Of a stretch of 64,000 nt of DNA, positions 24,164 to 64,000 are shown in pieces. Numbering within the stretch: the first letter of the stretch is position 1; each line of letters opens with the position of its first letter. The notes below the pieces were generated by a model. It saw only the letters and a program-made list of their open reading frames with translations. It did no database searches and was not told the DNA's origin. The translations under genes were made by a program, and so were the position numbers. The DNA comes from Styela clava (Eukaryota > Chordata > Ascidiacea > Stolidobranchia > Styelidae), in assembly GCF_964204865.1 (NCBI RefSeq), contig NC_135251.1, positions 16,120,001 to 16,184,000 on the forward strand. The letters run 5' to 3'.

Positions 24164-24175
24164 TTCCCCCAGCCA
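24164..24175 (-). other. Polypurine tract
   Basis: On the coding strand GGCTGGGGGAA abuts the 3' LTR, where plus-strand DNA synthesis is primed in LTR elements. Confidence 0.7.
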
Positions 24176-24248
24176 GATGTTGGAACCCAGTGGAAACATC
24201 TTACTCACAAATTTCTTACATCGAGGATATCACACACTTGAAAACATT

Positions 24249-27514: not shown

Positions 27515-27517
27515 TGC

Positions 27518-30367: not shown

Positions 30368-31218
30368 TGTAACAGCCGTTCTTTGTGACCTGGACGACAC
30401 CGACTGCACACTAGATATTTATTAACAGTTCAATAACGCGGTCTTTCAAGCCCCAAGTTTGTATCCTCAATCCAGAAAATCACACAACTCGAAGTATACA
30501 GTTGACTCGGTTATCTTAATACAAACGTAAAAACAAATCAATACAAAATAATTGCAATAAATAAATAATCGCACACAATTCGGCCTTTAGAAAGCCTACT
30601 CAAATTTATGAACACAATTATCAAACATAGTTAATTATTAAGTCGAACCAAATTACTATTAAATAACTTGCAGCCTTCACATCAGAAAGAGTTGCAAAGT
30701 ATAACATACCGAATTTGTCTGCTCTTCCAGGCTTAAATTATCATAAGTTGAACATGAAATCATTCGTCAATGAAATCCGAACAAATCAATTAAATAAACT
30801 ATAACTGTAAAATCAATCACAAAAGGCCATTTAATGCTCATAAAATATCCCTAAACTAGGCCTGTGGGCATCCATAATCTACATTATTTAATCGTCCTAC
30901 AGTCAAAACAGAAAGCCAAGGTCGCTGAACAAGTTTAACTTATTTACAAATTACAACGAAACGAGCGCCATTTTCTGCAAAAGTAAAGCGCTATCTAAAG
31001 CAAATTACCGAAACTATCCATGTCTAAGCGAGACATGTCTGGGCAAGCAATTGCCACGAAGACTCTCTCAATTGTTTCGTAACAAAGTGTGTGGAAGCAC
31101 ACTGTCAATCAAGGGAACTTACGGCGTCAACAATAACAAATAAATTACTACACAAGTTAAACGGACGCAATGTTTAAGTCAATACAAAAATCAAGTGAAT
31201 GCGATTCTCGATGTAACA
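30368..31218 (-). repeat. BEL element 5' LTR
   Basis: 851 bp, the same length as the 3' LTR. The LTR pair differs by about four substitutions, which suggests a recent insertion. Confidence 0.95.
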
Positions 31219-31661
31219 CTTTGTGTAAACCAATCAAATTATTTGAAATATTGAAAGTAGGCTATTCTAAACAATGTATATCGAACGAGCATTAAAATCG
31301 GTGACCCAAAAGCAATTATGTTCAATATGTTTCGGATTGTGATATAGCGAATCACTGATATTATGTAAAGCAATATTTAGCGTTTTTGTGGTATTGCGAC
31401 GAATTTTGTTATTTCTCCCGAGTTCTCGACTTTCGTTTGTTGGCTCTCAACTTATTTCCACTTCCACAATTAAGCGATCGCATCAGATTATACAAAATAT
31501 AAAAATAATGCTTCCCAGGCCTGTCGAAAGCAAAGTTACTATTCTAAAATAAACATTCTACTATAGACTACGATATATTTGTTACATTATTCTATAATAA
31601 AATGAGTAGATAAATATAAGTCCTAATAACTGTCAGATAATGTAATATTTGCGTCGTTGCA

Positions 31662-32197
31662 TTATTTCGTTGGGATGTCGAAAGCGCCCATAACATCTGA
31701 GCATTGAGAATTATTTAGAGGTGAAATGGCGTTCAAATCAATCAAAGCATTCCTAATGTCAAGAAGGTCTTTTGCTGATAGATATGGTGTTGGTGTATAC
31801 ACACCGATCCACTGAATCCCTGCAATATATTAACTATTGTGAAATAATCAACAATAAGTGCGATGCCATTTTACGTAACAAAAGATGAGTATGGCAGCTG
31901 TTCTCTTGTGCTTGTCTGATTTCCCTGGCAGCACAATACTCAAAACCACATTTCAAAGTTATACTTCGATTTCAGTTAACGCATTTGCTGTAACTTGAAA
32001 CAGTTAATTTACAAATAAGATGCTTTACTCGTTTTCATAAACTTACGGTTGTGCATGAATAAAAAACTAATTCGTTTCTTGCCATTTCCAAATCATAAAC
32101 AAATTACCTTCAAATATATCACAATCACTACAAACGATGTATGTTAAATAGTCGGTTGCAACCATGATCTCCGTGTCGCCATTTTCAATAGATTCAA
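31662..32197 (-). CDS. Lipocalin-like protein, last two exons (right arm copy)
   Basis: Exon 32,197 down to 32,108 (90 bp) and exon 31,819 down to 31,662 (158 bp, stop TAA) use the same splice sites as the left-arm copy. The VATDYLTY motif and the terminal helix and cysteine (NNSQC) are kept. It ends with PTK and stop, as the loop copy does, so this looks like the ancestral ending. One visible change is PYPS to PYLS. The BEL element lies about 440 bp downstream of the stop. Upstream exons are unidentified, as in the other arm. Confidence 0.58.
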
Positions 32198-33582
32198 CTG
32201 TAACCGTACGTACACACATGGATTATACAAACGGCTGTGTTATCATAGTGATCACAATCGAAGTAATTGTTCACACTATATAGAAATATTGAATCGATCA
32301 GATTATAAAATGTTATTTCTTAAAACTGCCCTCGTTGACTACTGAGTTGCTTGGTTTATTAGATATCAGATATTGCTTTTTTTGCTAAAAATGGATTCCA
32401 GTCCATAGTAACTTTTTTAATAAATCGAATATTCTAGTATCTCGTCCGTTGGCCCTATACCACGTTTTCACATACTTATTTCCACGCAGGGCTGTATTCA
32501 CGAAAAAAGCTCATTCTTCAGCTCCCCCTGTCTGCTGCTTTCGAACATGTATATATAATTTGTGTACTTATCTGAAATGCCTCATGGTAACTATTAGTTT
32601 GTAAAACTTAATCGCTGTGAAATCCTGATGAATTCCTTTTGAAAATAACACAATACCTTCTTGCGCAGCTGCTGTGTCATGGACGTGAGAAGAAACTCGA
32701 GAGTCGGCTTCTCTATGATCTGCGTCTTCTGTATTTATAGAAATAGTTCCAATTTACAACTAATAAATCAGGTAGTGTTTAACAACCGAGATCTCACGAA
32801 TTCCTCGATATGTTGCTGTTTCCTTGGTTTTGAAAAGTGCGACCACGAATTCTTTAGGCTCAGATCTATGTTTGAAAATATAAATAACGTGTAATAGACT
32901 GCATTGTTAAAATAGAATTATGAAGCTGCTTCAGATTCATATTATATTAAGCTTTCTAAAACAATGTTTCTCATTATCTACTCAAAAAGAAATAGCAGGT
33001 GAACATCCAATTTTGTTAATGTGATTCGCACAATCCTTCACAGGATACACTCAAAATTTATTTATCTGCACAATCGATATGCTTTGGCGCCCTAATAACA
33101 GAATGTTGCTGCCGCGGAAATGCGATGTCAAAATGCCCATTGAACCCAACAATATCATTATCATAGTAACTTACCCAGAATAAAAACAGTTCTTAGAATG
33201 AAATTTCACATGCTTTCGAGGTCATTTGTGATATTTTTTTACCACTTGACAATTGACAACTTTCGAAAATATTTCATATGATGATTTGAACGAAAGATAC
33301 CAACCTGACGATGAAATCTATTAAAACAAAGTTAAATATTATCGAATATCAATTAAAATATATTTTTGTTATCTTCCAGAATTACCATATTTTCATAGTT
33401 TCAATGATTGTGAGACTGAGCACGCATTGCAGCACCATATTGCAGCGAGAACACATACTTGTACAAAAATGAAGTAAATTTATTAAACATTGTTTACCCA
33501 TGAACTTCTGTTTGTGTATGATTATACCAGAAAGTTACAGTAGTCCAGGACGCTTTGCACAAAAGTCATGTTCTCTCTAGAA
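32198..33582. other. Arm sequence, mirror of 14,329-15,660
   Basis: No certain gene. The signal-peptide-like frame starting at 32,921 is interrupted by TGA, unlike its left-arm twin. Confidence 0.4.
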
Positions 33583-34950
33583 CAGGGGTCCGCAACTACT
33601 TTTTAGCGCGATCTAAAAAAAAATTTTCTAACTTCTCGCGACCCAAGCATTTGGTAAACATGTAATTAGTTATCGATTTTGAGACTATTGTCGACACTAG
33701 CATTTTTCTTGCACAAAATTATATGAAACTTATCACATAAAATTGCGAATAATAGCGTTTATTATGACTAATGCAAATTATAAGCTTTGTGTATAATACA
33801 CAACATATCAAATCGAGTTTTAATTTGGGAGACGGCAACTCGAAGATATTTTTCGACGCTTCACTGAATTATATCAACAAAACAGCTTTATTGACGAATA
33901 TATTCTTTACGTGACAAAATTTGATATGAGAAACTAACAAGTATATAATTCACAATCACTCGTTTAATGAGCCTATAATTGATTATAATTAGAGAAATGG
34001 CAACAGAACGTAAAAAAGTTGATGCTGAGCGCAAATGGTTTTATGACGCTTAAAATATTCAAATGATCAGTCTTCGCGCACTGCTTGAAATTTCTGGGTG
34101 AAAAAATGTGATTCATTGGCCATTCCTTTGGTTTTTAACTTTCTAAAATACGTGCTACCCGCCAATGACTTGCAACCTTTATTTTTGGCCCACAAACGAC
34201 AAAAGTTTGCCGACCTCTGGTTTAGACTTTAGAGACAGTGAAGTAATACAGTCATCACAACTCAAATGCTCGACCCACTGCCCTATCTTCTTCCACTTTA
34301 CTATTCTCGATCCTCTGCCCTGTCTCCCTCGCCTCGGCCAACTGCTCCACCTCCCTCAACCTTCTTATCCTCGACCAACCGTCCTATCCTTAACCGACTG
34401 TCCTATTTCCCCCAACCTTCCTATCCCCTTCAACCTCTTTATCCTCGACTCATAGCCCGAGTATGCCAATGAGATGATTCAATCGTACGTCGACAAAACA
34501 TGATTGACGGCATTCGTAAATGTAGGCTGGAATCTCAATTGGTAATCAATAACTATAATTAGTGGCTTAAAATGTGCTACTAATTAAGCTACTGATGGCA
34601 TCGGGTTTGAGGTGACTGTTTTCAAAATTTTGAAAGGCCATTCGATATCGACATACCTGAGTTCATTTTCAGAAACTCATTCAATGTCGCCTGTATTTCC
34701 GTGCAAGGCAAAACGATGAGGAAATAATCGAATATTTGCACGCTTAGTCATTTTCAACGAATGTTATGCCATATTCTGTTGTATATACAAATTTCTTTTA
34801 CGTTACTGAGAAGGCTGAAAAGTCAAAAACAGTCAAAAATATAAGTCGCTCAGTGAGTGTAATCCCTTCCAAACTATTTTTAAGCCATGAAATGTTTTGT
34901 CATAGCTATCGTTGCCAACTGCCCTTTAATTCAGCGTATAGACCCAAAAT
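33583..34950. mobile_element. Truncated copy of the 2.66-kb hAT element
   Basis: It starts CAGGGGTCCGCAACTAC at 33,583 but lacks the opposite terminus, lost with the right-arm deletion. It retains one minisatellite arm (34,260-34,460). Confidence 0.8.
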
Positions 34951-35801
34951 GAATGAACGAGGTTGATTGACTATGAGCATCTATACCCACAGTTATATAC
35001 ACTAATTCAAATAGGCTACATGTCAACATAATTATTTTGCAGTATACAACCTTCCTCTAGCACATTTTCAGAATCATATCGGCTGATGCAAGCCATTCCA
35101 TATTGATATCAGACGGGATAGGAAAGGGCGTTTCCAAAGATACTTCATGATTTCTATAGCTTTGTTTACAATCCTCTTCCATGTACTCGGATATATCTGT
35201 ACATTTTCTATGTGTACTTTACAGTTGTAAAGTTTTGGGTATTTTATAGAATAGAAATGGCTAAATATAATTCAGAAATAAAACAAATTCACTCCGAAAT
35301 ATGCGCCTTTTGAAATTGAAGATGTTAAAAAAGTTACAGTCAGGAATTTGTATCACGGACTCAAACGGACTCAAATATTTTACTATGCTTTGGAATGAAT
35401 AACCAAACAGGAGAAAATCCCATAAAATTAATTAAGCGAAAACGAGTGAAACGACGTCATGGATATACATTGTCAAACACCGGAAAATCTTTAAACATAA
35501 TGACGGTATGCAACTGAAACGAACGAGATTTATAGAAAAATTCAGTCACGCCGTGGAAAATTTTGTTAATTCCTCAGGCTAATTAACTTTTAAGCATATA
35601 TTTTTGCCTATTTCTTTAAACTTTTCCTCCTTCTCCATAAAAAATATCTAAATTAATGAATCACAAGTTAAGTAAAGTTTTATCTCGAAAATTTATGTTT
35701 GTCAAACACACTGTTGACAAATTGAAAGTTTTATAAGAGTCGTAAAAATAATTCGTAGCATAAATTGATGAGAGATATCACAAAGTGTGGGGTCAAATTA
35801 T

Positions 35802-35911
35802 AGTGTTTCCGTAGTATGTGCACCAAGATGGCGCACAACCTGAACATAGTATGTGTATCAGGTTAGGGTTAAGGTTGTGCGCCATCTTTGTGCACATACT
35901 ACGGGAGCGCC
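35802..35911. mobile_element. 110-bp foldback MITE, copy 3 (right arm)
   Basis: Mirror of the 9,763 copy, with target duplication CAAATTAT at 35,794-35,801 and 35,912-35,919. It was present before the arms duplicated. Confidence 0.85.
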
Positions 35912-36148
35912 CAAATTATTATCAAAGTAGTGAAGCGCCTTTTTCGACCTATACTGGTATACCTGAACAACAAGAGGCGATCTAAATGAGGACTTCACCT
36001 GAACGAATCATTGAATTGCCGCTGTATGGAATGTTGGCTTGGCCAATTGAGGTAAAATTTTATTAAGTAAAAGTCGATTGCAGTCACTTCAAAGATTGCA
36101 GTATAGACCCTACCCAACATGAGGCAGTAAAAAGGAGGACGTCTCAAA

Positions 36149-36340
36149 AATGTCGTGTCCCACTCGTCCTAGTTTTCCCACCTGTGCCATGTATCCCAAT
36201 TGCCTCACTTGTGCCACGTGTCCCATTTGCCGGCCTAATTGTCCCGCTTGTCCTATTTCCTACCCCACTTGTCGGACGTATCTCACTTGTCCTACAAGCC
36301 CGGCTTATCCCACGTGTCCCGCTTGCCCCACTTATCCTAC
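36149..36340. repeat. 9-bp minisatellite, right arm
   Basis: Mirror of 9,335-9,525. Confidence 0.8.
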
Positions 36341-36537
36341 ATACGTGGAACAAATGAGACACGACAAATATCAATTTAATATGTTCTGGAATACCTGTTC
36401 GTCAATCTGAAATAATGATAACTATAAATATAGTTTGCAAAAAACTATTTCATCCTGTCTGTCTTCTACAATCCAGATGAGAAATAAATATTATCGGAAT
36501 ATTTTTATACATAGTGATTACATAAGGTTAAATCATG

Positions 36538-40124: not shown

Positions 40125-43100
40125 ATGTCGTGGACTATTCCGCGTATGACGACAAAAAAGCTGTCGCTGATAATAATCGTTTGTCTGGTGATAACTTTCA
40201 CATGGTTTGTTGGATATTGGCAAAGCTCATCGTTCTTTAGTAAATATAGATATGGGAACACAGGAATACAACCCATTAAATATATACCGAAAACCACAAA
40301 TGTTACCAAGACATCGACAGTCGGACCTATGCTCTCCCCAGCTCAGCAAGACGAGTTGAAAGTTCGACTGAAAAAGGCAACAGATAAGAAGGTTACTTTT
40401 ATTATCGTTATTGAACACTGAGTTGGCATCTGAATCCTTTGCTTAACTGCTGCTTGTGCTTTTATTATTGGTGGCGGAAATCCTTTTCCATTTAGCAACT
40501 TGATAGATAGTTTCAAATTATGCATAAAGTATTTTAGAAGTGTCTCCAATGGAAGTGGAATTGAGGCTTATTATATTTATTGTTTGTCAATTTTTTTTGG
40601 TTTGCTGAATTTGAAAAACTGATATGCTAAAATTTGTATTCGTTGTTAATAAGAAGTGGTTTCACAATAATTCAAATGAAATTCGGTGAGCTGAAAGAGT
40701 AATAAATGAAAGGATCCCGAAAAAGCCAATAAAGCATAGTTTGTTACTCCTACAGCAATCGAGCTAAGGACTTATGACCAATCTCAAACTTATTCAAGTG
40801 AACGCTTTATAGATAATACTTGTATGGATTAGCGGCTTCGGAGCAAAAGTCACAGCTACAGTAGACCCTGAGAAATGTGGCAACTGCGAAGTAACTCAAG
40901 ATCGAGGATTGGTAATGTCAATTTTTTTTTCCATATTGAAATCTATATTTGTGATGGTTTGTGAATCACCAAAAATCCGGTATATTTGATCTTTTATTGC
41001 GTCTGTCCGGCATTGACATATCTAGTAGAAACCTACTTTTATTTTAGAGGGATTATAATATAACATCTTTGAACTATCGGCAAATTTAGTGTCTGCAATT
41101 AATTGACAGAAGATTATCTGTGAAAAAGTTTCCACAAAATCTTGAATATTTACGAATCGATTGTGTCAACAAATTTCATCGATAAAAGGTTACTAGAAAT
41201 TGCCTGATGTCGGGTATTGGTTACTTAGGTAGACCATTTAAAATAGTTTTTATCATTCTGTGCACTGTGCATTGCTGTTAAGTGAGGCTGGAACTTACGC
41301 TTCAAGATGGCGTAGTCAATTTTAATAATCTTTCGCTAACATTTTGGTTTTACAGTTGAATGACGAGAGAACAGGAGCAATTATTCTCCATTTTGACGCT
41401 TTGAGATCGAATAACGTTCCGCCAACCAGGTAGAGTAATCTAATTCGAGATCACAAAAATCTCTCATTTTCCTCTTTTGCATAGACATAGTTTGTATTCA
41501 ATTCTCCGTCAGTTACACAAATGAAATAAAACTAGTGACTTCTCTGTAAAGCAAGAAAACCCTCGCTTGAAATCAAATAAATAAATAAACAAATCAAAAC
41601 AAATTATACTTTCCACTAATGAAATATGAATGTGTCCAAAAATACTCTGATATGATGAAGCTACTAATCAATTATACAGAAACAAAACCGTAGACCCAGA
41701 ACGTGTGAACGCATGTGTACACCGCCCTATACCGCCTCATAATTTAATTATATTTTTTGAAAATGTACTTGTTATAATGAAATTCCGCGAAATTATAACT
41801 TTATCATAAATTGCCAGGTATTTAAAAAAAAAATTGTACCTGAAAAAAAAATTCGCCCAATAATTTCAGTCGATCCTTTTCGACCGTGGTTGTATTTCTT
41901 TCCGGTATTGCATCGGCAGTCAAATATATATTTGTCTAAATAGGAATAAATGTAATTTATGTCGTTTCAGGAACCCAAATCATCTTTATCTATTCTGGGT
42001 AATGGAAGCGACGGTCTATGTAAGCAAGTTGTACTCAAAAGTTATTGAGTTTGCTGATCAGTTGATATTCAATGGAACATATACACACAGGTAAGCATGA
42101 CATGCTCTTATCGTGCCACAACTGTAAAAAAAACTCTTATTTGTATTGTTTCGGCAAAGCGAATCTGTTGCAAACACAATCATTATTACAAATTATCATC
42201 ACAATAACTTGTTTTGTATATCCCAGAAGAAAAGCTAAGACCTTTCGTATGGTAAGCCCTTTTTGACTCCTTTCTGAAAGTTATTCCTCGCAATCTTTCA
42301 ATGTAAGACATAGTCATTTAAAAAAAACTTTGTTCTCTAAATAACTAAATTTATCCAAAAATTTTAATTTTCATCTGTTCAGTTTTGCAGAATTCGAAAC
42401 ATTACATATATTGTATTGTTACCTACACAAATGTGCTATCGTACAAAATATATAGCACTTGTCCGCGGTTGCTACTTGCCGAGACTATAATCTAACTCAT
42501 ATATATAAACTATAAATAGAACTTGGTGCATCAGTGGACACTTGCAATTCCTCCTTCTAACAGTGAATTATCCACATTTAGTTAACAGTCTAAAGCTTTA
42601 CTTTTTAAAACAAAAACAAATTAATTTTTTATGCCTGTTTTGTATTATTTTGTGACGTGAAACGTCATGAAACTTTCAGTTGAGATGCTACAACTAATTG
42701 CATCTGTTAATATGATCTTTAAGTTTTTGAAACCCATGACTTGTGATATTACAGAAGAGACGCAGATTTTTATTCACCTTATGGTAACGTGGAATCAATG
42801 ACAAATACTATATTGGAAGGGAATAAAATGACTCCGAAGCAATTGCTTCAAATGAAGAGCAAACTGGCAGTTGCAATTGCGTCCAATTGTGATGTAACGC
42901 CTGGTGCTAAAACACGAAAATCGATGCTCCAAGAATTAATTTCGTATGGTGTTCTTGAGGGATTTGGACGTTGTTTAGGCGGGGCGAATTTTGCCAACGG
43001 TCATCGGCGCGATGCCACTCACCACGAAGAAGTTAGAAAGTACAAATTCTATTTCGCTTTTGAAAACTCTCATCACTGCAAAGATTACATTACAGAAAAA

Positions 43101-44014
43101 TTTTTCGATAATGCCCTTTCCGGATTTGCAGTTCCCGTAGTCTGGGGAGCAAAGAGGGAAGATTATGAGGCAATTGCTCCGACCGGTTCTTTTATCTACG
43201 CTGAAGATTTTTCTTCAATGAAAGAGCTTGCTGAATATATTGTATATCTTGATCAAAATGATGACGCATATTTAGAATATTTAGAGTGAGTTGTTATATT
43301 TTTTTTCTCTAACAATTGTTTGCGTGCGAATTACAAGACTTGTATAAAACATTTTGGATGTCACTTTGGTATCTGATCTCAGCGCCATAAAATTACTTTG
43401 GTACGTGTTCTCACTTGCTTAACGTGATCTCAATCGCATAATTATATTATCATAGAATTCAGTTTCTAGTCCTAACTCTGTCATACTAGAATCACTGAGG
43501 TCAACACTACCGCTGAAAAGTATTAAGTTTTTACTCAACTTATTCTCCCCGAGGACTAATCAGAAGAAAATTGAAATAGATTCAAAAGTAAAGTTTCCTC
43601 ATTGCAAATCTGATAAAATGCTGTCCTAAAGCTTATCGACGACTTATGTCTACTCTGATTTATGTAGAGCAATTTAATATTGAATGTTAAAATTGTATTT
43701 TTAGGCAAAAATCTTACAGGCCGACCGGCGAACAGAAATTTAATTTGAACCAACACTGCATTTAATACTGTTTAAATTTCAGGTGGACAACAATGAAACC
43801 AAGTGAACTGCCTGAATACGGTCGTCAAACTGGATGGTGTCAGATTTGTCGAGCATTACACGGAATTAATGTTGACGATATTTTTAATCCAAATTACGAT
43901 TCAGAAAAGCCAGAACGGCCTTTATTCACTAATGGGATTGCAAAGCGAACGGTAACGCCTAGTTTAACTGGGTGGTTTGTCGACGGTGAAAACTCTAATT
44001 GTTTTCGTGGTTGA
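40125..44014 (+). CDS. Alpha-1,3-fucosyltransferase (GT10), gene A, six exons
   Basis: Exons: 40,125-40,391; 40,813-40,911; 41,356-41,429; 41,971-42,090; 42,755-43,285; 43,783-44,014 (total 1,323 bases, 440 residues plus stop). All introns have GT/AG ends, and the frame closes without a gap. The protein is type II: short cytoplasmic MSWTIPRMTTKK, membrane anchor residues ~13-32, a stem, then the catalytic region. Exons 2-4 give the GT10 N-terminal domain (CGNCEVT, then LYLFWVMEA and FNGTYTHR). Exon 5 carries SNCDVTPGAKTR and the donor-binding motif FENSHHCKDYITEKFF (~289) with VPVVWG. Exon 6 has GWCQICRALHG. The enzyme should move fucose from GDP-fucose onto GlcNAc of glycans in the Golgi. 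NxS/T sites occur at NVT and NGT. The neighbour downstream is a tandem paralogue. The exact linkage cannot be told from sequence. Confidence 0.93.
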
Positions 44015-46810: not shown

Positions 46811-49800
46811 ATGGAAAACGAATACAATTCAACTAGTTTGTCCATACGATGTAAAATAGCTGTTATTATAGTAACGATATTCGTGTTATTGGAAATTACC
46901 ACTGTGAGTCATTGGGAAAATAAAAACTTGAAATACTCCCCGTGGAACCTAAACCACCAGTTTTGGAAGAGTGTATACATGGGCATAAACCCGATAAATA
47001 TTTCCGACATTGTTCTGTATAACCAACGAACGGCGGGATTACTTTCTGAAAAAGATAAAGATGAACTGAAAATAAGGTTGGCAAATGCAACAGACAAAAA
47101 GGTATGATTGTGAAAAGTTCTTAGCTAAACGTTAGTCAGTATGTAAACGATTTTGTAAAATAACGTTACCTAGTAGCATGGTGGATTTATGAGTGAAGTG
47201 AATTTTATTTGTTTCTATGCTACGGCCGTGGGCTTCCAGATAAATATAAACGAGAAAACAATTGGCGATCTCTTCATCTAATCACCAAGCGGTATCCGGT
47301 CGAATTTGTCTTGTAATACGCCTGTCCCAATAAATGATATTTGTACAACCATCATGTTTCCCTCTCGACTTCAAAATTCGTTCCGAAAATTCAATGTTTA
47401 ACAAGGATTACTCACATGGCTTATTTGTCAATATGGGATGGTTATGAGTATATTTGAGATTTCAATAATGGTTAATATGTGTCCCATATTTTCTTTACAT
47501 GGATTTATTTGGGAAATAAAATGAGGTTTAATTCGTTATCGAGTGCTTTTTCATTCACGTCGAACCAACGTCGTTCCTCAGTCAAAACAAATGTTGCGAC
47601 ACTGAGAATGTTTATTGAACAAATAATTATTACTATTCTGTGGTAAGATTCGTTAAATCGGTCTATTGGGAAATCTGTGTATATAGCAAACCATAATTCC
47701 CATGAGGACGTTATAACTTCGTCTTAAAGTCAGGTTCATAGATAATCGAAGTTAGGAACTTTATCTTGGCGCAAATGATCTAAAAAATTTCATTAACAAA
47801 TATTTTCACGAATATGAACATTATTACATTCGAGAAGCTTTTTGCTGAACACATGGATTGTTATAATCTAAAACTTCCTGACAATGGTGAAATAGGTAAA
47901 TTTAATCTCTTCAGCATCGTTGTATCATTTAGAAGGGGGGGGCGGGGAGGGCTTATAACGACGTCTAAGAAACGTTTCGCACTATTTCTTTAAAACAACT
48001 CGTTTGAAATATTTGAAATGAAACTGAACATTTTGTTTTCATTTTGATTCAGGTTATTTTAGTATGGATCCCTGGTTTTGGGGTGAAGGGTGCAGTCAGT
48101 ATCGACGCGGTGAAATGCGGAAATTGCGAAGTGACTTACGATAGAGATAAGGTAAGATAAGTTGTTTTCTACTTTTATTGTTATTGTTGACACAATCGTC
48201 AGTAACCCAGTTCTCTTCACGAGAGATAAACAGAAAACTTGAACGCCTAACCGTCCTTGAAACAGAATGCTTTGGTTTATTACGTTACAGTTCTATTTAT
48301 TCCAAGCAAACTGATTCGTAAACTGTATGTTAGCTCTCAGGATATGACAAACGTTCATCTTCGTATTCAGTGGGATTTAGTGCGACAAGAATTCACATTG
48401 GTTGAATGATATTCAATAATTATTTTAAATTTAATGTTATTCAATTATCTTTGAACGTTCGGTAATATATCGGGATTGGTAACTGACTTCGAAATTGACC
48501 TTTTTAACGCCAGCAGTCATGTTCCCAATTATTCAATGGGTTCACCAAGTCTGGTAGCGATCGTATTCTAATATGGGCAATTTAATTTTTAATTGACTAA
48601 ATTTATACCAGAAAGGCATTTCTACCTCTATAGCCTAATCCATCACAAAACATAAATAATTGAAAAAGCCGCATGATCGCTCACCACGGATTTGAATGGA
48701 TCTTGAACTGAATTGAATTAAATAATAGTCTCGAACCAAACGATGAACCATTGTTCGGTAGTCGAGAAACTTTTGAGTTCCTTTTTTCTGCTTTCATCAC
48801 ATTTAATATTGATACATTATTTTAGCTTAATGACGAAAGCACTGCCGCAGTTATCATGCATTTCGACGCAATAAGACCTGGAAATGTTCCTACCACAAGG
48901 TATGTGGCCCTTTTATTTTTTCATTCCAATCAAAATTCTGATATTCAAATTTCAATATTCCACGGAACGATAGTAATATATTACCATAAATGACAAAGGA
49001 GGCGAATTTTCTATATAACATTTGTGTGAGAACTTGTTTGAAACGCCTGCATTTTTGTTGCAAGTCTGTCCTTGGCCTATGATTGAAATAGTTCATACTG
49101 AATATTGTCTTTACATTACAAGTGGCATCAGTGCTATCGCGCTCACAGACAGTTCTACTAGTAAGACAGATATTTATTCATTTTAGAAATCCGAAACATC
49201 TTTATATATTTTGGGATATGGAATCGACTGCGACACTTAAAGTAGTTCGAGGAGTATCTCTTCAGTTCGAAGACTCTATTCAATTTAACGCTTCATGGAC
49301 ACACAGGTAAAATACTCAATTTTGGTCATCGATATCATTGTTTTGTGCATTTTGTATTATTTCACTTGCTATATGTTCCAAAATAGCTGCGAAGCATTCT
49401 AATTTCAATGTTTTAACGTGTTTCACACTCTCACTCCGAACAGTTTTTCGCCATATTTTCTGTTGGTAGTCAACTGGCTATACTGTAGAAATTTGCCTTA
49501 TTCTGACAAGAACAACTACTATTCTCCGTAGGTTTGAATTTTGAATGACAATGAAACTATGTATGATTATATCCTACAGGTAATTCTGTTTTTGTCAGAA
49601 AATTCATTAGAACGATACTACTCATTCCGTTTGATCACATGTCTCATAATATGTATATATTCTTTCTACTCAAAAATTTCAGACGAGATTCAAGTTTCCA
49701 CGCACCGTATGGAAATTATCACACGTTGACTCAAATTTTGGAAAGCAATAAACTTACACCTGAAGAGTTACTCAAAAAGAAAACGAAAACCGCCGTCGCC

Positions 49801-50803
49801 ATTGTATCAAATTGTGCCATTACTCCGGGTGCTAAGACACGAATTAGATTATTACAAGAACTTGAGAAAATGGGATTTAATTTAGAAGGATATGGAGGTT
49901 GTTTTGGAAATAAAAATTTTCCCAACCACGGTGATAAAAATTATCACGATGCGGTTCAAAAATACAAGTTTTATTTTGCCTTTGAAAATTCTTATCACTG
50001 TAAAGACTACATCACTGAAAAATTTTTCAACAACGCCCTAATGTCTAATGCTGTTCCAGTTGTCTGGGGACCCAAGAGAGAAGATTATGAAGCTATTGCT
50101 CCCCCCGGTTCTTTCATTCATGTGGACGATTTTTCATCTTTGAAAGAACTTGCGAATTATATTAAATATCTTGACCGAAATGATACCGCATATTTAGAAT
50201 ATTTGAGGTGAGTGTTTATTTTATCAAGATATTTTTGAATCCTAATATACATGATAAAACACTCCAACGCTTCAATTTGTTAATATCTAATTATGAGCTA
50301 CGGCGTTTCATAACATAGTTTAGTTTCTATTTGCCATAATCCTAACTGATGCTTTCGGTCTGTATTTTAAAATAGGCCAAATATTTGGTGACATCAATAT
50401 TTTCCCAATCTTGCTTTTTTGTGTGATCCAATTGCAATTACGCATTTTCACCCACTATCCTGTTTGCAAGAACCACTTTTGCTATGAGCATCTTTGTCAA
50501 GCATGATTTGGTGATAAAACGAGCATTTGTATGTGTCCAACAAAGCATGTAAATGATAAGTTTACTTTCAGATGGCTGACCTTGAAACCAAGTGATATGC
50601 CACGATACGGACTTGAAGGAGGATGGTGCCACATTTGTCGAGCATTGCACGGGATAAATGTCGACGATATATATCATCCAAAATATGATCCGGCCAACCC
50701 TGAAAGGCCTTTGTTTACAAAAGGGTTAGCACCGCGAACGATAAAACCAAGTCTCAGCGGATGGTTCTATGGAGAAGAAAATCCAGAATGTTTCAATACG
50801 TAA
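46811..50803 (+). CDS. Alpha-1,3-fucosyltransferase (GT10), gene B, six exons
   Basis: Exons: 46,811-47,101; 48,053-48,151; 48,826-48,899; 49,187-49,306; 49,683-50,207; 50,572-50,803 (1,341 bases, 446 residues plus stop). Exons 2, 3, 4 and 6 have exactly the lengths of gene A (99, 74, 120, 232), with the same intron phases. Features: cytoplasmic MENEYNSTSLSIRCK, membrane anchor ~16-35, a stem, then CGNCEVTYDRDK, LYIFWDMES, FNASWTHR, SNCAITPGAKTR, FENSYHCKDYITEKFF, VPVVWG and GWCHICRALHG. It has the same predicted role as gene A: Golgi transfer of fucose from GDP-fucose. NxS/T sites include NIS, NAT and NAS; the NAS site aligns with NGT of gene A. Tandem duplication is the evident origin. Both copies are free of breaks, so both are probably active, perhaps with different substrates or expression. 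Confidence 0.93.
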
Positions 50804-53389: not shown

Positions 53390-55020
53390 CATTTCAGGAC
53401 CTAGGTAAAGCTAGCGGACACTTCCAGCAGACAGTTACCAATTTTTCCAAATTTGAACCCGCCATGTTCCACGACAGTTGTCGCGAATTCACTTAATTGC
53501 GGCTACATTGATGCAAAAAATTAGGCGATTCTCCCTTTTAGAAACTGACGACAGACCTGAAACATAAAAAAAAAAAAAAATGATTGAAACAACACATTTT
53601 TTCCTCGGTAAAATGAATTATTGCTCAGAAGCTCATTTATCGACAAAATCTAAAATTTAACTGAGTTGAAGCGTAATTTATGCAAGAAATATTTTTTTCT
53701 CATGCAATTCATTAATACAGTGTATTTGATGAAGATATATAAAACATATATTAAATTTTAAAAAAATTCCACCATGCGGAAAGTTGGGAAATACCCCCCA
53801 ATTTAAGGAAAATTTTTAAGAAATCGTCAATATAACTCAGTTAAAAGCGTAATTTATGCAGGAAATAATATTTTCTCATCCAATTCAATAATACAGTGTA
53901 TTTGTTGGACAAATATAAAATACATATTGAAATTTAAAAATAATCCACCGTGCGGAAAGTAGGGAAATTCCCCTCAATTGAAGAAAAAAATATAAGAAAT
54001 CGTCAATTTGACTCAGTTAAAGCGTAATTTAGGTAAGAATGAATTTTTTCTCATCCAATTCATTAATGCAGTGTGTTTGGTAGACAAATATAGAATACAT
54101 ATTAAAATTTAAAAAAAATCCACCGTGCGCAAAGTAGGGAAATTCCCCCCAATTGAAGAAAAAAATATAAGAAATCGTCAATTTGACTCAGTTAAAGCGT
54201 AATTTAGGCAAGAAGGATTTTTTTCTCATCCAATTCATTAATGCAGTGTGTTTGGTGGACAAATATAAAATACCTATTAGAATTTAAAAAAAATCCACCG
54301 TGCGGAAAGTAGGGTAATTCCCCCCAATTAAAGAAAAAAATATAAAAAATTGTCAATTTAACTCAGGTAAAGCGTAATTTAGGTAAGAAAGAATTTTTTC
54401 TCATCCCATTCATTAATGCAGTGTGTTTGGTGGACAAATATAAAATACATATTGAAATTTAAAAAAAATCCACCATGCGGAAAGTAGGGAAATTCCCCCC
54501 AATTAAAGAAAAAAATATAAAAAATTGTCAATTTAACTCAGGTAAAGCGTAATTTAGGTAAGAAGGAATTTTTTCTCACCCAATTCATTAATGCAGTGTG
54601 TTTGGTGGACAAATATAAAATACATATCAAGATTTAAAAAAAAATCCACCGTGCGGAAAGTAGGGAAATTCCCCCTAATTAAAGAAAAAAATATAAGAAA
54701 TCGTCAATTTAACACAGTTAAAGCGTAATTTAGATAGGAAGGAATTTTTTCCCATCCCATTCATTGATACAGTATATTTGGTGAATATATATAAAACACA
54801 TAGTAAATTTAAAAAAAATTCCACCGTGCGGAAAATAGGGAAATTCTCCCAATTTGATGAAAATATTTAAGAAATAGTCTAATTAACTTACTTAAAGCGT
54901 AATTTATGCAAGAAAGAATATTTTCTCATCCAATTCATTGATACAGTGTATTTGGTGGACAAGTATAAAATACATATTAAAATTTAAAAAAAATCCACCG
55001 TGCGGAAAGTAGGGAAATTC

Positions 55021-55125
55021 GGTACTCCCGAAATATGAGCACAAAGATGACGCACCACCTGAAAATAGTAGGTGTACCAGGATAGGTTTAGCTTTAGAAT
55101 CCAGATTGTACGCTTTCGGGAGCGC
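55021..55125. mobile_element. Diverged 105-bp foldback MITE within satellite unit (left arm, first)
   Basis: Ends GGTACTCCCGAAATATGAGC and (mirrored) GCGCTCCCGAAAGCGTAC. It is related to the 110-bp MITE family (interior AAGATGACGCACCACCTGAA). It sits exactly after a GTAGGGAAATTC unit segment. Confidence 0.8.
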
Positions 55126-55607
55126 AGGAAATACCCCATTTATGCAAGAAATAATTTTTTCTCATCCTATTCATTAATACAGGGTATTTGATAAAGATGT
55201 ATAAAACACATATTGAATTTAAAAAAAATTCTATCATGCGGAAAGTTGGGAAATACCCCCCAATTTAAGAAAAAGTTTTAAGAAATCGTCAATTTAACTC
55301 AGTTAAAACGTAATTTATGCAGGAAAGAATATTTTCTCATCCAATTCATTGATACAGTGTATGTGGTGGACAAATATAAAATACATATTGAAATTTAAAA
55401 AAAATCCACCGTGCGGAAAGTAGGGAAATTCCCCCCAATTAAAGAAAAAAATATAAAAAATTGTCAATTTAACTCAGGTAAAGCGTAATTTAGGTGAGAA
55501 GGAATTTTTTCTCATCCAATTCATTAATGCAGTGTGTTTGGTGGACAAGTATAAAATACATATTAAAATTTAAAAAAAATTCCACCGTGCGGAAAGTAGG
55601 GAAATCC

Positions 55608-55712
55608 GGCGCTCCCGAAATATGAGCACAAAGATGACGCACCACCTGAAAATAGTAGGTGTACCAGGATAGGTTTAGCTTTAGAATCTAGATTGTACGC
55701 TTTCGGGAGCGC
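55608..55712. mobile_element. Same MITE, second copy in left arm
   Basis: Nearly identical to 55,021-55,125 and in the same position within its repeat unit, ~587 bp further on. It was therefore copied together with the satellite, not independently inserted. Confidence 0.8.
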
Positions 55713-55768
55713 AGGGAATACCCCATTTATGCAAGAAATAATTTTTTCTCATCCTATTCATTACAAGT

Positions 55769-57329
55769 CAATAATGAACTGTGACATCATAAACATGTCT
55801 GGCGAGAAATGAAATTTGATAATTCAAGTTTATTTATTTTTTCCAACCAGTAAAAAATAAATAAATAACACAGGCACAAATTACAAGAAAATAGTACACA
55901 GTTTTATTAGGGAAGGGAAGTCGCGGGGAATCAAGAATGGTTCGAACACCGACAACCGAAGTACTACTGTTATTATTGAATGAACAATGAATAAGGTGAA
56001 CAATAAACACAATGAATAAGGGGAACACTAAACACAATAAAAAAAGTGAACACTAAAAACAAATACGTTACGGCCAGCGGTTCCCAAACTATGGGTCACG
56101 ACCCACTGGTGGGTTGCAAAAGGAATCTTAGTGGGTCGTGAAAAGATGTAGAAAGATATGATTAATTATATACTGTATACTGGTTATTAGGATCGGTAGT
56201 GACTCGAGTACGTAAATCTTCGAAAAAACAAAAGAAATTAAATCAAATTTAAATTCTAATATGTGAAAGTTTCCGTTTTACGATCTTCTCAAAGGAACAA
56301 AAATATGCTACACAATGTGGCTTTTTTACGCATAGCAGTTTTGTACACTGTACAGCACTTCTTACCGTGTTTTCCCGAAATTTAGACAGGATTTAGATTT
56401 ATTTTCTTTTGAAGAATAACACTATGTTTTTTTTTTTGGAAGAGGTCTTTTGTGTTCATTTATCAAAAATAAAATTACATTGTAGAAAATCACGAGATTT
56501 TTTTAATAAACTTTATATAAAAACCGACATCCATTCCGACATGCAATTCTTTTTATAATTTGAATGTTAGACGGCTGTTTTTCTAATTGGGCACTAGTTG
56601 CAGAATTTGTTATTATATGAGGGAAATTATTATCAAAGTTATTTGAGATTTGGGCAAAAAGGTATAGTGCATGGACATAGCAGCAATACAAAAATAATAT
56701 AACTTGAATACCTAATGAAATAAACGTTTATTTCTAATGCAAATCAAATGTACCGCGATGACAAAATTATATGAATTATGAAATACAATTCCATTGCTAT
56801 TAATGCTCGTCGAATATTGAAAAAGAAATCATAAATATTTTACGTATTAAATTAAAAAGATCATAAGATCTTCGTGTCAGTCCAAGAAGTTTAAACAATG
56901 AATCAGGAACCACCAGGACGAAGACACATCATTTATCACATCCTTTGACTTGAATGAGATTTTTACATTCCGTATTTCGATGTTAGTATTGACTCGTGAA
57001 TACATCATATAGAATTCACACTGGTGTTCAAAAACACGACCTGAAAAACAAAGCATAGAAAAATAGTTTGCGAAAAAATTGCGTCATAACCAGTGGTGGG
57101 ATTAAGCCGGTTCGCACCGGTTCTATAGAACCGCTTCACGAAATTTTATGAGATGAGCGAACGGGTTAGAATTACTGGTTACTGTCAATGTTCTGTTTGC
57201 AACAGAACCGGCCGAAAAATATGACTTTTGTGATGGAACCGGCTGACAAAAAATTTGAATCACACCACTGGTCATAACATAATTAAATACAAAGACCTTG
57301 CATGATTTTATTATATTATTAAGTGCGAA
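55769..57329. other. Core of the foldback element
   Basis: 1.56 kb without a supported gene. A hAT-like left terminus (CAGCGGTTCCCAAACTATGG) lies at 56,075 without a visible partner, and a small complete hAT MITE at 57,091. Poly-T and AT-rich tracts fill the rest. Confidence 0.6.
57091..57270. mobile_element. 180-bp hAT MITE with perfect 8-bp target duplication
   Basis: It starts CAGTGGTGGGATTAAGCCGG and ends TTTGAATCACACCACTG. GTCATAAC flanks it on both sides (57,083-57,090; 57,271-57,278). The repeated word GAACCGG occurs inside. Confidence 0.9.
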
Positions 57330-59339
57330 AGAAATTTTTTTAAATTTTAATATGTGTTTTATATATGTCCACCAAATACACTGTATTAATGAATTGGATG
57401 AGAAAATGTTCTTTCCTGCAAAAATTACGCTTCAACTGAGTTAAATTGACGATTTCCTATATTTTTTTCTTAAATTGGGGGGAAATTCAACACTTTCCGC
57501 ACGGTGGATTTTTTTTAAATTTCAATACGTATTTTATATATCTCCATCAAATACACTGTATTAATAAATTGAATGAGAAAAAATAATTTTTTACATAAAT
57601 GGGTTTTTTCCTGCGCTCCCGAAAGCGTACAATCTAGATTCTAAATCTGAACCTATCCTGGTACACCTTTTATATTCAGGTTGTGCGTCATCTTTGTGTC
57701 CATATTTCGAGTGTAACGAATTTCCCTACTTTCCGCACGGTGGATTTTTTTTAAATTTTAATATGTATTTTATATTTGTCCACGAAACACACTGCATTAA
57801 TGAATTGGATGAGAAAACATTCCTTCTTACCTAAATTACGCTTTAACTGAGTTAAATTGACGAATTCTTATATTTTTTTCTTCAATTGGGGGGAATTTCC
57901 CTACTTTCCGCACGGTGGATTTTTTTTAAATTTTAATATGTATTTTATATTTTTCCAACAAACACACTGCACCAATGAATTGGATGAGAAAGCATTCCTT
58001 CTTACCTAAATTAAGCTTTAACTGAGTTGAATTGACGATTTCTTATACTTTTTTCTTTAATTGGGGGGAATTTCCCTACTTTCCGCACGGTTGATTTTTT
58101 TTTAAATTTTAATATGTATTTTATATTTGTCTACTAAACACACTGCATTAATGAATTGGATGAGAAAAAATTCCTTCTTACATAAATTACGCTTTAACTG
58201 AATTAAATAGACGATTTCCTGAATATTTTCATCAAATTGGGGGGAATTTCCCTACTTTCCGCATGGTGGATTTTTATTAAATTTTAATATGTATGTTATA
58301 TTTGTCCACCAAACACACTGCATTAATGAATTGGATGAGAAAAAATTCCTTCTTACCTAAATTACGCTTTAACTGAGGTAAATTGACGATTTACTGAATA
58401 TTTTCATCAAATTGGGGGGAATTTCCCTACTTTCCGCATGGTGGATTTTTTCTAAATTTTAATATGTATTTTATATTTGTCCACCGAAAACACTGCATTA
58501 ATTAATTGGATGAGAAAAAATTCCTTCTTACCTAAATTACGCTTTAACTGAGTTAAATAGACGATTTGTTAAATATTTTCTTCAAATTGGGGGGAATTTC
58601 CCTACTTTCCGCACAGTGGATTTTTTTTTAATTTTAATATGTATTTTATATTTGTCCACCAAACACACTGCATTAATGAATTCGATGAGAAAAAATTCCT
58701 TCTTGCCTAAATTACGCTTTAACTGAGTCAAATTGACGATTTCATATATTTTTTTCTTCAATTGGGGGGTATTTCCCTACTTTCCGCATGGTGGATTTTT
58801 TTTAAATTTCAATATGTATTTTATATTTGTCCACCAAACACACTGCATTAATGAATTGGATGAGAAAAAATTTCTTCTTACCTAAATTACGCTTTAACTG
58901 AGTTAAATTGACGATTTCTTATATTTATTTCTTCAATTGAGGGGAATTTCCCTACTTTCCGCAAGGTGGATTTTTTTTTTAATTTCAATATGTATTTTAT
59001 ATTTGTCCCCCAAATACACTGTATTAATGAATTGGATGAGAAAATAATATTTCCTGCATAAATTACGCTTTTAACTGAGTTATATTGACGATTTCTTAAA
59101 AATTTTCCTTAAATTGGGGGGTATTTCCCAACTTTCCGCATGGTGGAATTTTTTTTAAATTTAATATATGTTTTATATATCTTCATCAAATACACGGTAT
59201 TAATGAATTGCATGAAAAAAAATTATTTCTTGCATAAATTACGCTTCAACTCAGTTAAATTTTAGATTTTGTCGATAAATGAGCTTCTGAGCAATAATTC
59301 ATTTTACCGAGGAAAAATGTGTTGTTTCAATCATTTTTG
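57330..59339 (-). repeat. ~177-bp tandem array, right foldback arm
   Basis: Reverse orientation of the left array (CCCTACTTTCCGCACGGTGG, then ATGAATTGGATGAGAAAAAA, then TAAATTACGCTTTAACTGAG). About eleven units with substitutions. Some units have a variant ending GAATATTTTCATCAAATTGG not seen on the left, so the arms have diverged or been shuffled unit by unit. Confidence 0.9.
57613..57715. mobile_element. Same MITE in the right foldback arm
   Basis: GCGCTCCCGAAAGCGTACAA at its start mirrors the left-arm copies. It occupies the equivalent place in a unit, so the insertion predates the inverted arm arrangement. Confidence 0.8.
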
Positions 59340-59524
59340 TTTTTTATTATGTTTCAGGTCTGTTGTCAGTTTCTAAAAGGGAGAATCGCCTAATTTTTTG
59401 CATCCATGTAGCCGCAATTAAGTGAATTCGCAACAACTGTCGTGGAACATGGCGGGTTCAAATTTGGAAAAATTGGTAACTGTCCGCTGGAAGTGTCCGC
59501 TAGCTTTACCTAGGTCATTTCAGG

Positions 59525-61480
59525 CACTTTGATATTTTTTATTTTTACCGTACGTCATTGGGATTTCCAATTTACCTGACAAGATAATTAGACTTTAAAT
59601 AATTTTTTGCATCCCTATATTGCAATAAAACAATATTATTTCCAATTTATTAGGGTATAAATTATTTTTCAATAGTAAAATGTGGCAACATTGATTACAA
59701 AATATAGAAATCAGGCACTTGTGAAATTTCAGGCACTTGGTCAAAACCTATTTTACAATGTATCTGATTACTCTAAAACAGAAAATTAAATATATACACT
59801 TTGTATGGTTGAATTTACAACATTTTGGTAAAATACATGGCGGTGTGGCTCAACGGGCTAAGCGTTAGGAATACGCTCGCCACCGCACCTCTAATTGCTC
59901 TGCGTCGGTTCGCAGGTTCGAATCCAATGCAGGGATGGTTATGTGCGAGAGGATTGCTGGACTCCTCGCCGTCGTTGGGTGGTTCACGTAACCGCTAGTC
60001 GGCTACGGCTTCCTCCACCACCAAGTCCATGCTTCCGAAAACAAACAATACAGTAAAAAACTAAATCCCATACCCGACTTGGAATGGTAACCGGACGAGA
60101 GGCCGTGGTTCGCCATATGGATAAGCCGTCTTATCGGCTTTCCTCTCCCCCGGGATAAATATGTAAATCCTATCCTATACAATACCGTTTGTGACTGATG
60201 GAGACGTGTCATATTTCGCAAGTGCCTGATTTTTCATTTTTCTCGGTGACAGTTGCCATATTTTTTCGCAATTATTTTTTTGAATTATTTGCGTCAGCAC
60301 TTACTATTCTTTGCTTTCTAACGCAAATTCATTGTTCCACAACAATTTGAGCGTTTTTAATATGGCAATGAGCAATACTATTTGACAACATATGGTCAAC
60401 CATTGTACTTTCTGGATTTATTTGAAATTGAATATGAGTAATAAAATCTGGCAACATCAAGCACAAAATACTAAAACCAGGCACTTGTGAAATTTCAGGC
60501 ACTTCGTAAAAACCTATTTCTCGATGTTTTTACTTACTTTGAAGCAGAAAACTAAAATATAAACTCTTTTGTATGCTTGAAATGACGTCTTTTTGGTAAA
60601 AAACAAGAACGATTGGGACTGGTGATGAGGGGTCAAATTTCGCAAGTGCCTGATTTTTCATTTTTTTCGATAACAGTTGCCATATATTTTCGCAACAATT
60701 TTTCTAGATTATTTGCTTCAGCACTTTCTATACTTTGCTTTCTAACGCAAATTCATTGTTCCACAACAATTTGAGCGTTTTTAATATTGCAATGAGCAAT
60801 ACCATTTGACAACATATGGTCAACCATCGTACTTTCTGGATTTATTTGAAATTGAATATGAATAATAAAATCTGGCAACCTCAAGCACAAAATACTAAAA
60901 CCAGGCACTTGTGAAATTTCAGACACTTTGTAAAAACCTATTTCTCGATGTTTTTACTTACTTTGAAGCAGAAAACTAAAATATACACTCTTTTGTATGA
61001 TTGAAATGACGTCTTTTTGGTAAAAAACAAGAACGATTGGGACTGGTCATGAGGGGTCAAATTTCGCAAGTGCCTGATTTTTCATTTTTTTCGATTACAG
61101 TTGCCATATATTTTTGCAATACTTTTCATAAAATCTTTTTCGTCAGAACTTACTAATCATTGCTTTTTAAAGGAAATTCCTAGTTCTACAACAATTTCAG
61201 CGTTTTTAATAATGCAATGAGCAATATCATTTGACAACTTATAGATTTGAAATTGAATAGGAATGATAAAATCTGGCAACCGCAAGCACAAAATACTAAA
61301 ATCAGGCACTTGTGAAATTTCAGGCACTTTGTAAAAAACCATTTCCCGATGTTTTTGATTACTTTAAAGCCGAAAATCCAAATATACATATTTTGTATGA
61401 CTGAATTTGGTATTTTTATTGTTCAAAACAAGAAGAACTGTCACTGGTAGGAATGTGGCAAATTTAGCAAGTGCCTGATT
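59525..61480 (+). repeat. ~424-bp tandem repeats (about four units)
   Basis: The landmark GCAAGTGCCTGATTTTTCAT recurs at 60,218, 60,641 and 61,066, with a variant at 61,467 (spacing 423, 425, 401). Each unit also has CAGGCACTTGTGAAATTTCA, GAACGATTGGGACTGGT and TTTGAAATTGAATATGA. The first unit is diverged and carries a SINE. There is no coding potential. Confidence 0.88.
59839..60178 (+). mobile_element. tRNA-derived SINE, complete-looking copy
   Basis: The tRNA-like head GGCGGTGTGGCTCAACGGGC has an A-box-like segment. The B box GGTTCGAATCC is at 59,915-59,925. A body shared with 19,460-19,725 and a tail with short TCCTA repeats follow. It interrupts a 424-bp unit at TTGGTAAAATACAT; the unit resumes at ~60,179. 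It should be transcribed by RNA polymerase III if active. Confidence 0.85.
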
Positions 61481-63544
61481 TTTTGGTTTTGTCAATGGTA
61501 GTTGCCATATCTCTATAATTTTTGTCTTTTTTTTATATGTTGTTTCCCTATTGCATTATTTTATAAAAGTCAATGTTTGTATGAGAGCTCCACTTAGCAT
61601 AAATGGAATTAAACTTTTAACATCAGTATCTACTCCGGAAATTGGTATTTAATTAAACCAATCACTATTTGAATATTGTAAAGTTTGAATGACATTGTGT
61701 TGTTTATTTTTATTAATTCAAAAGTATTACATATGTATTATTTAAATACGGGTTTAAATTTGACAGATCTGTAAAGAATATTAGTTATTCAGACGACATC
61801 TTTATAGTAATGTTCGGAACCCTTGAAATTGGTTCAAAACTTCTTCTAATTTGTTATAAACATTTCGACGTAATATATTACCCAGGTAGCAACAATCGCA
61901 TTGTTTTAAAGAACCTAATTTGTCTTCTGGCAATATTAGTTCGAAATTCCAGTTTTAATTGTTATCGGACGACGATTTTAATAATGTAATTCGGCCTATG
62001 ACTTCATATAAACTACATAACAGAAACAATTGACTTATGTCGTATAGAATTTTTTATAATACGTATCCAAGTCACATTATCCCCTAATAGAACATAATTT
62101 ACCGTTCACAAAATGTATAAAAGCCTGTGCAAAATCTATATTGACAACCAGCGGTGTTCAACCACGGCTACAATAAAGATATTCAATCACTTGACGTTGC
62201 TGTTGTATAATATTCTTTACAACCTGAAGATCTGACTGTAATATCTTTTCATGGATAGTTTATGGAATGGATTTCATGGATAGTTTACGTAGAATTATTT
62301 GTACATTATTTCATGCTGTAACAGCTAACTGTAAAACACGTAGTTCCTAAATAAGAAGAATGGCTACAGGATGGTAAATACGAGATGGCAATGTCACCTA
62401 AACAAAATTCGCTCGGCGAATGACATCAGGTAGCTGATATGCCCAAAGTTAGGCTTAAAAGCATCGTTAAACGAATGTTACAATAAAAATCCTTCAATAT
62501 TCAACACGCCAGTAGTCAGTCAACGATTTTTTTTGCATTATTCAAAAAGTTACAAATATATAAAAACGTAAAACAGTAATTGTTTTTAATGTCACAGAAG
62601 CCGTATTAAACTCTCGATTATAGATCTTTCTTCATCAGTAATTGGGGATATAAATTTGAATTTATTAAGGAGATAAAACATTAAAAACACAACTTCACAA
62701 AGGAAGTGTATGAGTGAACACTAATCGAAGCTTTCAATTTGAAAATTATTAGAAATATTGAGTATCCAATGAAAATCCTTACTATTTGTTCTATTTTGAC
62801 ATGATATGATTTACGTATCTTGCAATCAGGTAAAACCACAGATCTAAGAATTGAAAATTTTAAATGTCAGTTCTGAAATTAAACATGAAAAGGTTTTGTG
62901 TATTGTTTGCTACTCTTATATGTCGGGCGTATAGTTTCTTCATGTCGCGAATGAGCATCAGAATAGGTTGTGCAGAAAATGGTGCTCCCGTAGTATGTGC
63001 ACAAAGTTGGCACACAACCCGAACATAGTATGTGTACCGAGATAGAGGTAATAGGTTGTGCGCCATCTTGGAGCACATAGGCTACTACGAGAGCGCCCTG
63101 AAAATACCCACATTTGCAACACCGACTTACCGAATACAAGTTTTACACTTCCACAATTTCGCTTTGATAATTTCTCACATGTATCATGATACCAACGCTT
63201 GCAAACGAAGCATTGATATTGTACGTGCTCCCGTATACATTTCGCACTTTAACAGACACTCCAATTATTATTTTCCAGAAAGCAAAATTCATGCATCGGA
63301 ATGTCAGAGTATATGAGTGGCGACGATGCAGTGCGACAACGTTCCAAATGTGATTGAATTTTTGTTGACTCCGACTTGTTCAATCTTCCATCTGGGCGTT
63401 TTGAAGAGGTATGTACTCACTTCAAATATAAATACTTGCACCACCTTCGGGCAGACGTCGAATTGAAATTAGCGATAAGAATAGCACTCAATATACATCG
63501 GATTGTCTTAAAAAACATTTTACCGAGAAAGCAAAGTATAGTAA
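61481..63544. other. Core between inverted 424-bp repeats
   Basis: No supported gene. It holds one 110-bp MITE (62,981). A TATAAAAG ... AATAAAG arrangement at ~62,117-62,178 resembles an LTR, but no target duplication was found. Confidence 0.5.
62981..63097. mobile_element. Foldback MITE, copy 4
   Basis: GGTGCTCCCGTAGTATGTGC at the left, mirrored GAGCGCC end at the right. Flanks CAGAAAAT (62,973-62,980) and CTGAAAAT (63,098-63,105) match at 7 of 8. Confidence 0.8.
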
Positions 63545-64000
63545 GTACTAAGTTCTGACGAAAATGATTTTATGAAATATATTGCAAAATATATGGCAAC
63601 TGTAATCGAAAAAAAATGAAAAATCAGGCACTTGCGAAATTTGACCCCTCATCACAAGTCCCAATCGTTTTTCTTTTTTTACCAAAAAAGACGTCATTTC
63701 AATCATACAAAAGAGTGTATATTTTAGTTTTCTGCTTCAAAGTAAGTATAAACATCGAGAAATAGGTTTTTACAAAGTGCCTGAAATTTCACAAGTGCCT
63801 GGTTTTAGTATTTTGTGCTTGCTGTTGCCAGATTTTATCATTCCTATTCAATTTCAAATAAATCCAAAAAGTACGATGTTTATGTATATGTTGTCAAATA
63901 ATATTGCTCATTGTAAAAACGCTGAAATTGTTGTAGAACTAGGAATTCCTTTCACAAAGCAATGATTAGTAAGTTCTAACTCAAATAATTTAGAAAAATT
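63545..64000 (-). repeat. ~424-bp repeat in reverse orientation, runs off the window
   Basis: AAAAATCAGGCACTTGCGAA, then ACCCCTCATCACAAGTCCCA and TTTTACCAAAAAAGACGTCA are reverse complements of the units at 59.5-61.5 kb. The inverted arrangement around a ~2-kb core suggests a second foldback element continuing to the right. Confidence 0.85.

Follow-up and report, generated by a model that had tools for sequence, protein, structure and literature searches.

What is the mirrored structure near the right-hand side of a 64,000-nucleotide stretch of the ascidian Styela clava genome (contig NC_135251.1, positions 16,120,001 to 16,184,000; this whole stretch is the window, and all positions below are counted within it), what would have brought it there, and how have its long arms stayed alike? 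The structure occupies 53399-59515 (6117 bp), is symmetrical and structurally complete, bears an insertion signature at its outer edges, has no recognisable transposase in the reading frames of its core, and is less alike between its mirrored arms inside than at its tips. We consider it probable that this is a foldback transposon of an animal genome, non-autonomous and of the cut-and-paste kind, moved by a transposase supplied from elsewhere, most likely a Mutator-like one.

The insertion signature is a target-site duplication. The sequence CATTTCAGG directly adjoins both mirrored ends as an exact 9-bp direct repeat (53390..53398 and 59516..59524, both on the + strand), and a 9-mer search of both strands of the 64-kb window, alongside reading of the sequence itself, recovers it at these two element-flanking places only. 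Two random 9-mers of the window would match by chance with a probability of 1.5e-5, and among 57860 position pairs at the exact spacing of the two copies there is a single match, the element's own pair. A flanking duplication of 8-10 bp is expected of the foldback class, and the exact 9-bp CATTTCAGG falls within that range. The preliminary description of the locus, which had proposed a foldback-type transposon inserted with a 9-bp duplication, is thus borne out by the exact pair, the mirrored ends and the arms of repeats.

Both ends read ACCTAGGTAAAGCTAGCGGACACTTCCAGC inward with 0 mismatches over 30 bases, and over the terminal 246 aligned bases left and right are separated by 6 mismatches and 2 gap positions (97.6% identity), in agreement with the mirrored ends first reported. 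The end alignment and profile matches place the unique terminal segments at 53399..53660 on the left (+ strand) and 59255..59515 on the right (- strand); running to about 53660 and 59255, at 246-262 bp, they are longer than the ~180 bp originally assigned to them. Each segment closes with the 8-bp perfect palindrome ACCTAGGT (53399..53406 and 59508-59515), which occurs in the window only at 53399 and 59508; palindromic 8-mers of any kind account for 398 of 63993 in the window. Behind the left tip lies a subterminal direct repeat, AGCGGACACTTCC / AGCAGACAGTTACC (53413..53439, + strand), and behind the right tip stand AGCGGACACTTCC and AGCGGACAGTTACC, the second left copy being one base off its counterpart at the right end. 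When the letters of the 60-base right tip were shuffled, a test made at this end only, 119 of 20000 trials gave an exact 8-mer repeat comparable to the subterminal one.

Inward of these segments the arms are built of tandem units. Tandem Repeats Finder (TRF) gives a period of 175 bp and the compared units have a consensus of the same length, slightly below the ~177 bp of the preliminary description; counting partial units as well as full ones, profile matches recover 12 in the left arm and 11 in the right. The left arm (+ strand) comprises an outer array of units L1-L8, L8 being partial (53661..55032; TRF, profile matches, unit comparison), an inner array of units L9-L11 (55123..55619; profile matches, unit comparison) and a partial unit at its inner end (55710..55762; profile matches). 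This last fragment, 53 bases long, is omitted from the unit comparison, which covers 11 left and 11 right units. The right arm (- strand) comprises an outer array of units R9-R1 (57706..59254; TRF, profile matches, unit comparison) and the inner units R11 (partial) and R10 (57332..57615; profile matches). Long inverted arms made largely of tandem repeats mark the foldback class, and the 11 + 11 mirrored units of ~175 bp do indeed face each other around a core, 1.57 kb in length (55763..57331), as had been proposed.

The core contains a 25-bp x 3.2 tandem repeat (55984-56062) and is without a Pfam match above cut-off. Reading frames were taken from stop to stop with a minimum of 45 amino acids; 46 overlap the element, and the 13 of these that reach the core were scanned without exception. 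None (0/13) matched Pfam above cut-off, which lends indirect support to the earlier suggestion that the element is mobilised in trans. The same holds for all 20 frames scanned among the 46 (13 in the core and 7 in the arms or left end), and matches below the cut-off (Sarcolipin, E 0.035; DltX, 0.059; RTTN_N, 0.1; YaiA, 0.22) were disregarded. No Mutator or P transposase was detected in the 20 scanned of the 65 window frames of at least 85 amino acids. The element is apparently non-coding, and the 175-bp arm units likewise appear to be non-coding.

The case for Mutator begins with the ends. Terminal inverted repeats (TIRs) of over 100 bp combined with an 8-10-bp duplication are given as the criterion for a Mutator-like element (MULE) (PMC5225508), and the element described here has both. 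The Aedes aegypti MULE Muta1, classed as a type 2 foldback element, is similar in design, with a palindromic terminal motif, subterminal direct repeats, an 8-9-bp duplication and non-coding derivatives, as described in PMC5225508. By the same account Muta1 has a TIR of 145 bp and an imperfect 10-bp palindrome, against a perfect 8-bp palindrome here, and encodes a transposase, and 175-bp units do not figure in that description (PMC5225508).

From this anatomy we infer the following course of events. A transposase made elsewhere, most likely Mutator-like, would recognise the ~250-bp terminal segments, the recognised features being the palindromic ACCTAGGT tip and the subterminal AGCGGACA-type repeat; it would then excise the element and join it to a 9-bp staggered cut, giving rise to the CATTTCAGG duplication. 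Within each arm the 175-bp units may multiply via unequal exchange or slippage, and likeness of the arm tips may be maintained either through repair that copies one arm from the other or through constraint on the ends to which the transposase would bind.

Several observations weigh against the Mutator assignment. Merlin-type elements would likewise account for a 9-bp duplication, which is also near the 8 bp of hAT and P. The family is argued from one element, no second copy having been found within the 64-kb window; prokaryotic and viral contigs, scanned for exact patterns, hold 0 matches, which carries little weight for an animal element. The second subterminal copy at the left end carries a one-base change, and folding of the 41-base tip as single-stranded DNA yields nothing out of the ordinary (z -0.62). 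There are two subterminal repeats here, compared with nine of 12 bp in Muta1 (PMC5225508). The terminal palindrome and the subterminal repeat were chosen post hoc, and they add modest weight for Mutator because they were selected after the fact and because the subterminal repeats number only two. The Mutator-like transposase of the preliminary description is therefore plausible and is somewhat strengthened by the Muta1-like design of the tips, although the transposase itself did not appear in the scanned frames.

Among the alternatives, the one that fares best is a foldback-like element moved by another transposase that duplicates 8-9 bp, whether Merlin, hAT or an unrecognised superfamily, which we regard as unlikely. 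The same window contains a DUF4371 piece (5322-6287), presumably a hAT-type transposase relic, which favours this explanation. Merlin ends in GG, and hAT elements duplicate 8 bp and carry CAG(T/C)GG-type ends; both features argue the other way, the element having a 9-bp duplication and ACCTAGGT termini that are also unlike the CAGTGG ends of a miniature inverted-repeat transposable element (MITE) nested in its core. More generally, PMC4079207, PMC3169594 and PMC3573991 take foldback arms to have arisen separately under different transposases, leaving room for a source other than Mutator.

Less likely still is a P-superfamily foldback like Galileo of Drosophila that happens by chance to have a 9-bp duplication. 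P elements other than Galileo duplicate 8 bp, which counts against this interpretation. Galileo itself, as described in PMC3573991, shares long arms that are internally repetitive, lengthen through tandem repeats and trade sequence between copies, and it has non-coding copies and variable arm lengths; its transposase is P-type, and such arms therefore arise in other superfamilies too, but its duplications are of 7 bp. The 9 bp found here agrees with neither length, and no THAP or P transposase was matched in the 20 scanned of the window's 65 frames of at least 85 amino acids.

The motif ATTTCAGGCAC is repeated in the host DNA of the window, and a chance origin of the duplication therefore had to be weighed. 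ATTTCAGG occurs seven times in the window, five of the seven continue as CAC, one of these five is the element's right flank, and from 59617 onward that flank is a diverged copy of a 424-bp repeat found at 60.2-61.5 kb. The possibility that the duplication is merely a host repeat was rejected, as only the two ATTTCAGG sites abutting the element carry a preceding C. Joining the flanks with a single 9-bp copy gives uninterrupted ATTTCAGGCACTTTG, as in the host repeats at 61317 and 63787, the empty site expected without the element being CAGGCACCATTTCAGGCACTTTG. That the structure is an inverted duplication of satellite DNA and not a transposon, its flanks sharing CATTTCAGG by chance, would find a precedent in another inverted duplication of the window (9137-36537) that lacks an evident flanking duplication, but is highly improbable given the C-preceded sites, the restored motif and an exact abutment to 30 perfectly mirrored bases on both sides that chance would not be expected to produce. 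The C-preceded sites, the spacing statistics and the unbroken joined flanks indicate instead that the element inserted into or beside a host repeat.

To the right of the element, about three 424-bp units (60179-61510) face an inverted array of like units (63526-64000), up to 93% complementary, which runs to the end of the window. These arrays are possibly a second arm-of-repeats element, with the foldback element inserted at its outer edge.

A further question is how the arms of the element have remained alike. Left-right identity, taken from tip to centre in 100-base bins with more than 10 aligned columns, is 94-99% in the outer ~900 bp and 82-95% deeper inside. L1-R1, L2-R2 and L3-R3 are mutual best matches among the units, and when L1-L3 were paired at random with right units, just 4 of 5000 trials reached the observed mean identity. 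Deeper inside, units L4-L6 are nearest one another (although R3, R7 and L3 tie or nearly tie with them), and so are R4-R6, a pattern suggestive of separate expansion of the two inner arrays.

A comparison independent of the tandem units is afforded by a MITE-like relic of ~92 bp, present three times inside the arms and at an identical unit position in both (two left copies at 55033..55122 and 55620..55709, + strand; one right copy at 57616..57705, - strand; all edges approximate). Left copy 1 differs from the right copy at 9 of 92 sites and left copy 2 at 8 of 92, the two left copies differing from each other at 1 of 92; set beside the 6 differences in 246 at the tips, 9 in 92 is significantly more (Fisher p = 0.0065). 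This suggests end-directed homogenisation or constraint: mirror identity is lower inside than at the tips, and the tips would therefore have undergone mutual copying, or been under selective constraint, at a later time than the inner arms. Alternatively, the relic may simply evolve faster than the tips.

It is tentatively possible, and we would not put it more strongly, that the element represents an undescribed foldback family, probably of Mutator type, whose two arms have repeatedly been copied onto one another over the outer ~900 bp, from the tips inward, through transposition-linked gap repair, with the inner arrays drifting and expanding separately. For FB4 of Drosophila, template switching within the repetitive TIRs has been put forward (PMC8277862). 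The identity gradient is uneven, however: the bins at 54399 and 54599 reach 94-95% (the latter contains a 175-column gap), L6 and R7 are 93.7% alike in the register anchored by the MITE-like relic, and the comparison of tip plus L1/R1 against L2+L3/R2+R3 gives only p = 0.052. The rank correlation of mirror identity with position (rho -0.95, p = 0.0004) involves eight non-independent values and is not relied on.

Facing arms of repeats are a known design. Drosophila FB has a 9-bp duplication, and the repeat units of both FB and the sea-urchin TU elements are short. These two, which are mentioned in PMC4079207, share with the element their facing arms of tandem repeats. Compared by description and not by sequence, the architecture appears nearest to that of Drosophila virilis Tetris, which likewise has an external unique domain, tandem units (~220 bp), a non-coding middle and 8-10-bp duplications, and whose transposase is given as not known (PMC4079207). 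Against Tetris, whose TIRs reach up to 1735 bp in the same description (PMC4079207), the Styela element has a unit of 175 bp, arms of about 2.2-2.4 kb and a palindromic tip, and an inner domain like the Tetris TIR-ID was not recognised in it. Tm1 of Meloidogyne root-knot nematodes also combines composite tandem-repeat arms with mostly 9-bp duplications (8-10 bp in 45 of 53 complete elements, 9 bp most frequent) and non-coding members; as described in PMC3169594, its units are of 13-15 bp, its end motifs are asymmetric and of 7 bp (CGGTTAA, CCTACCC), and some members encode a Phantom-type Mutator transposase. A text search of an open-access library for pieces of the terminal sequence gave only one match, an unrelated one concerning a heart defect, and literature on foldback elements with Ciona or tunicates held nothing on point among the matches listed.

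Smaller elements lie within the larger one; neither the MITE-like relic of the arms nor the MITE of the core had been noticed in the preliminary description. A 180-bp hAT-type MITE (57091-57270; 57083..57278 with its flanking duplications) is nested in the core, its ends CAGTGGTGGGATT / AATCACACCACTG matching at 12 of 13 bases and a perfect 8-bp duplication, GTCATAAC, flanking it on both sides, 8 bp being the typical hAT length. A further sequence, at about 56074, resembles what we take to be another hAT end; its partner was not recognised. A flanking target duplication was considered for the MITE-like relic in the arms, whose approximate edges fall where unit sequence is missing. This relic is related to a palindromic MITE with GCGCTCCCGTAGTATGTGCAC-type ends, of which the window holds four further copies (7158-7267, 9763-9874, 35800-35912 and 62979-63098), those at 9.8 and 35.8 kb being two halves of one inverted duplication. 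We infer that the relic was present before the arms took their current form.

Elsewhere in the window, a dispersed repeat (59858-60120 and 19468-19721, 84% alike) contains GGTTCGAATCC, which we take to be a tRNA-like B box, and is probably a short interspersed element (SINE); ARAGORN found no tRNA in the whole window, and Rfam gave no match in 50-64 kb. The inverted duplication already mentioned (9137-18624 / 21426-36537) consists of pieces 98-99% identical around a 2.8-kb spacer, shows no evident duplication at its outer ends, and may have arisen by recent segmental duplication in inverted orientation or reflect an effect of assembly. Its right half carries a BEL/Pao long terminal repeat (LTR) retrotransposon at 23313-31218, with LTRs of about 850 bp that start TGTAACAG and end TGTAACA, gag- and pol-like frames within 24407-30189, and a CTTTG duplication at the insertion, the empty site being kept in the left half. 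A 2235-bp stretch (10727-12961) is present only in the left half, and terminal inverted repeats were not found in it at E 1e-3. Two pieces of GT10 fucosyltransferase genes (42747-43289 and 49567-50211) are about 72% identical in DNA over 501 aligned columns.

Even a sequenced genome may contain few complete foldback elements, as with the three copies of Tetris in D. virilis (PMC4079207), and the transposase that moves such elements is often not known. Apart from its ends and its internal marker, the Styela element is an unexceptional representative of a known design. Its exact ends are a handle for seeking the partner transposase, and the MITE-like relic is an internal arm marker for testing how inverted arms stay alike. 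If the copying of the arms from their tips inward proves true, the element would hold a readable clock of arm homogenisation inside a single transposon.

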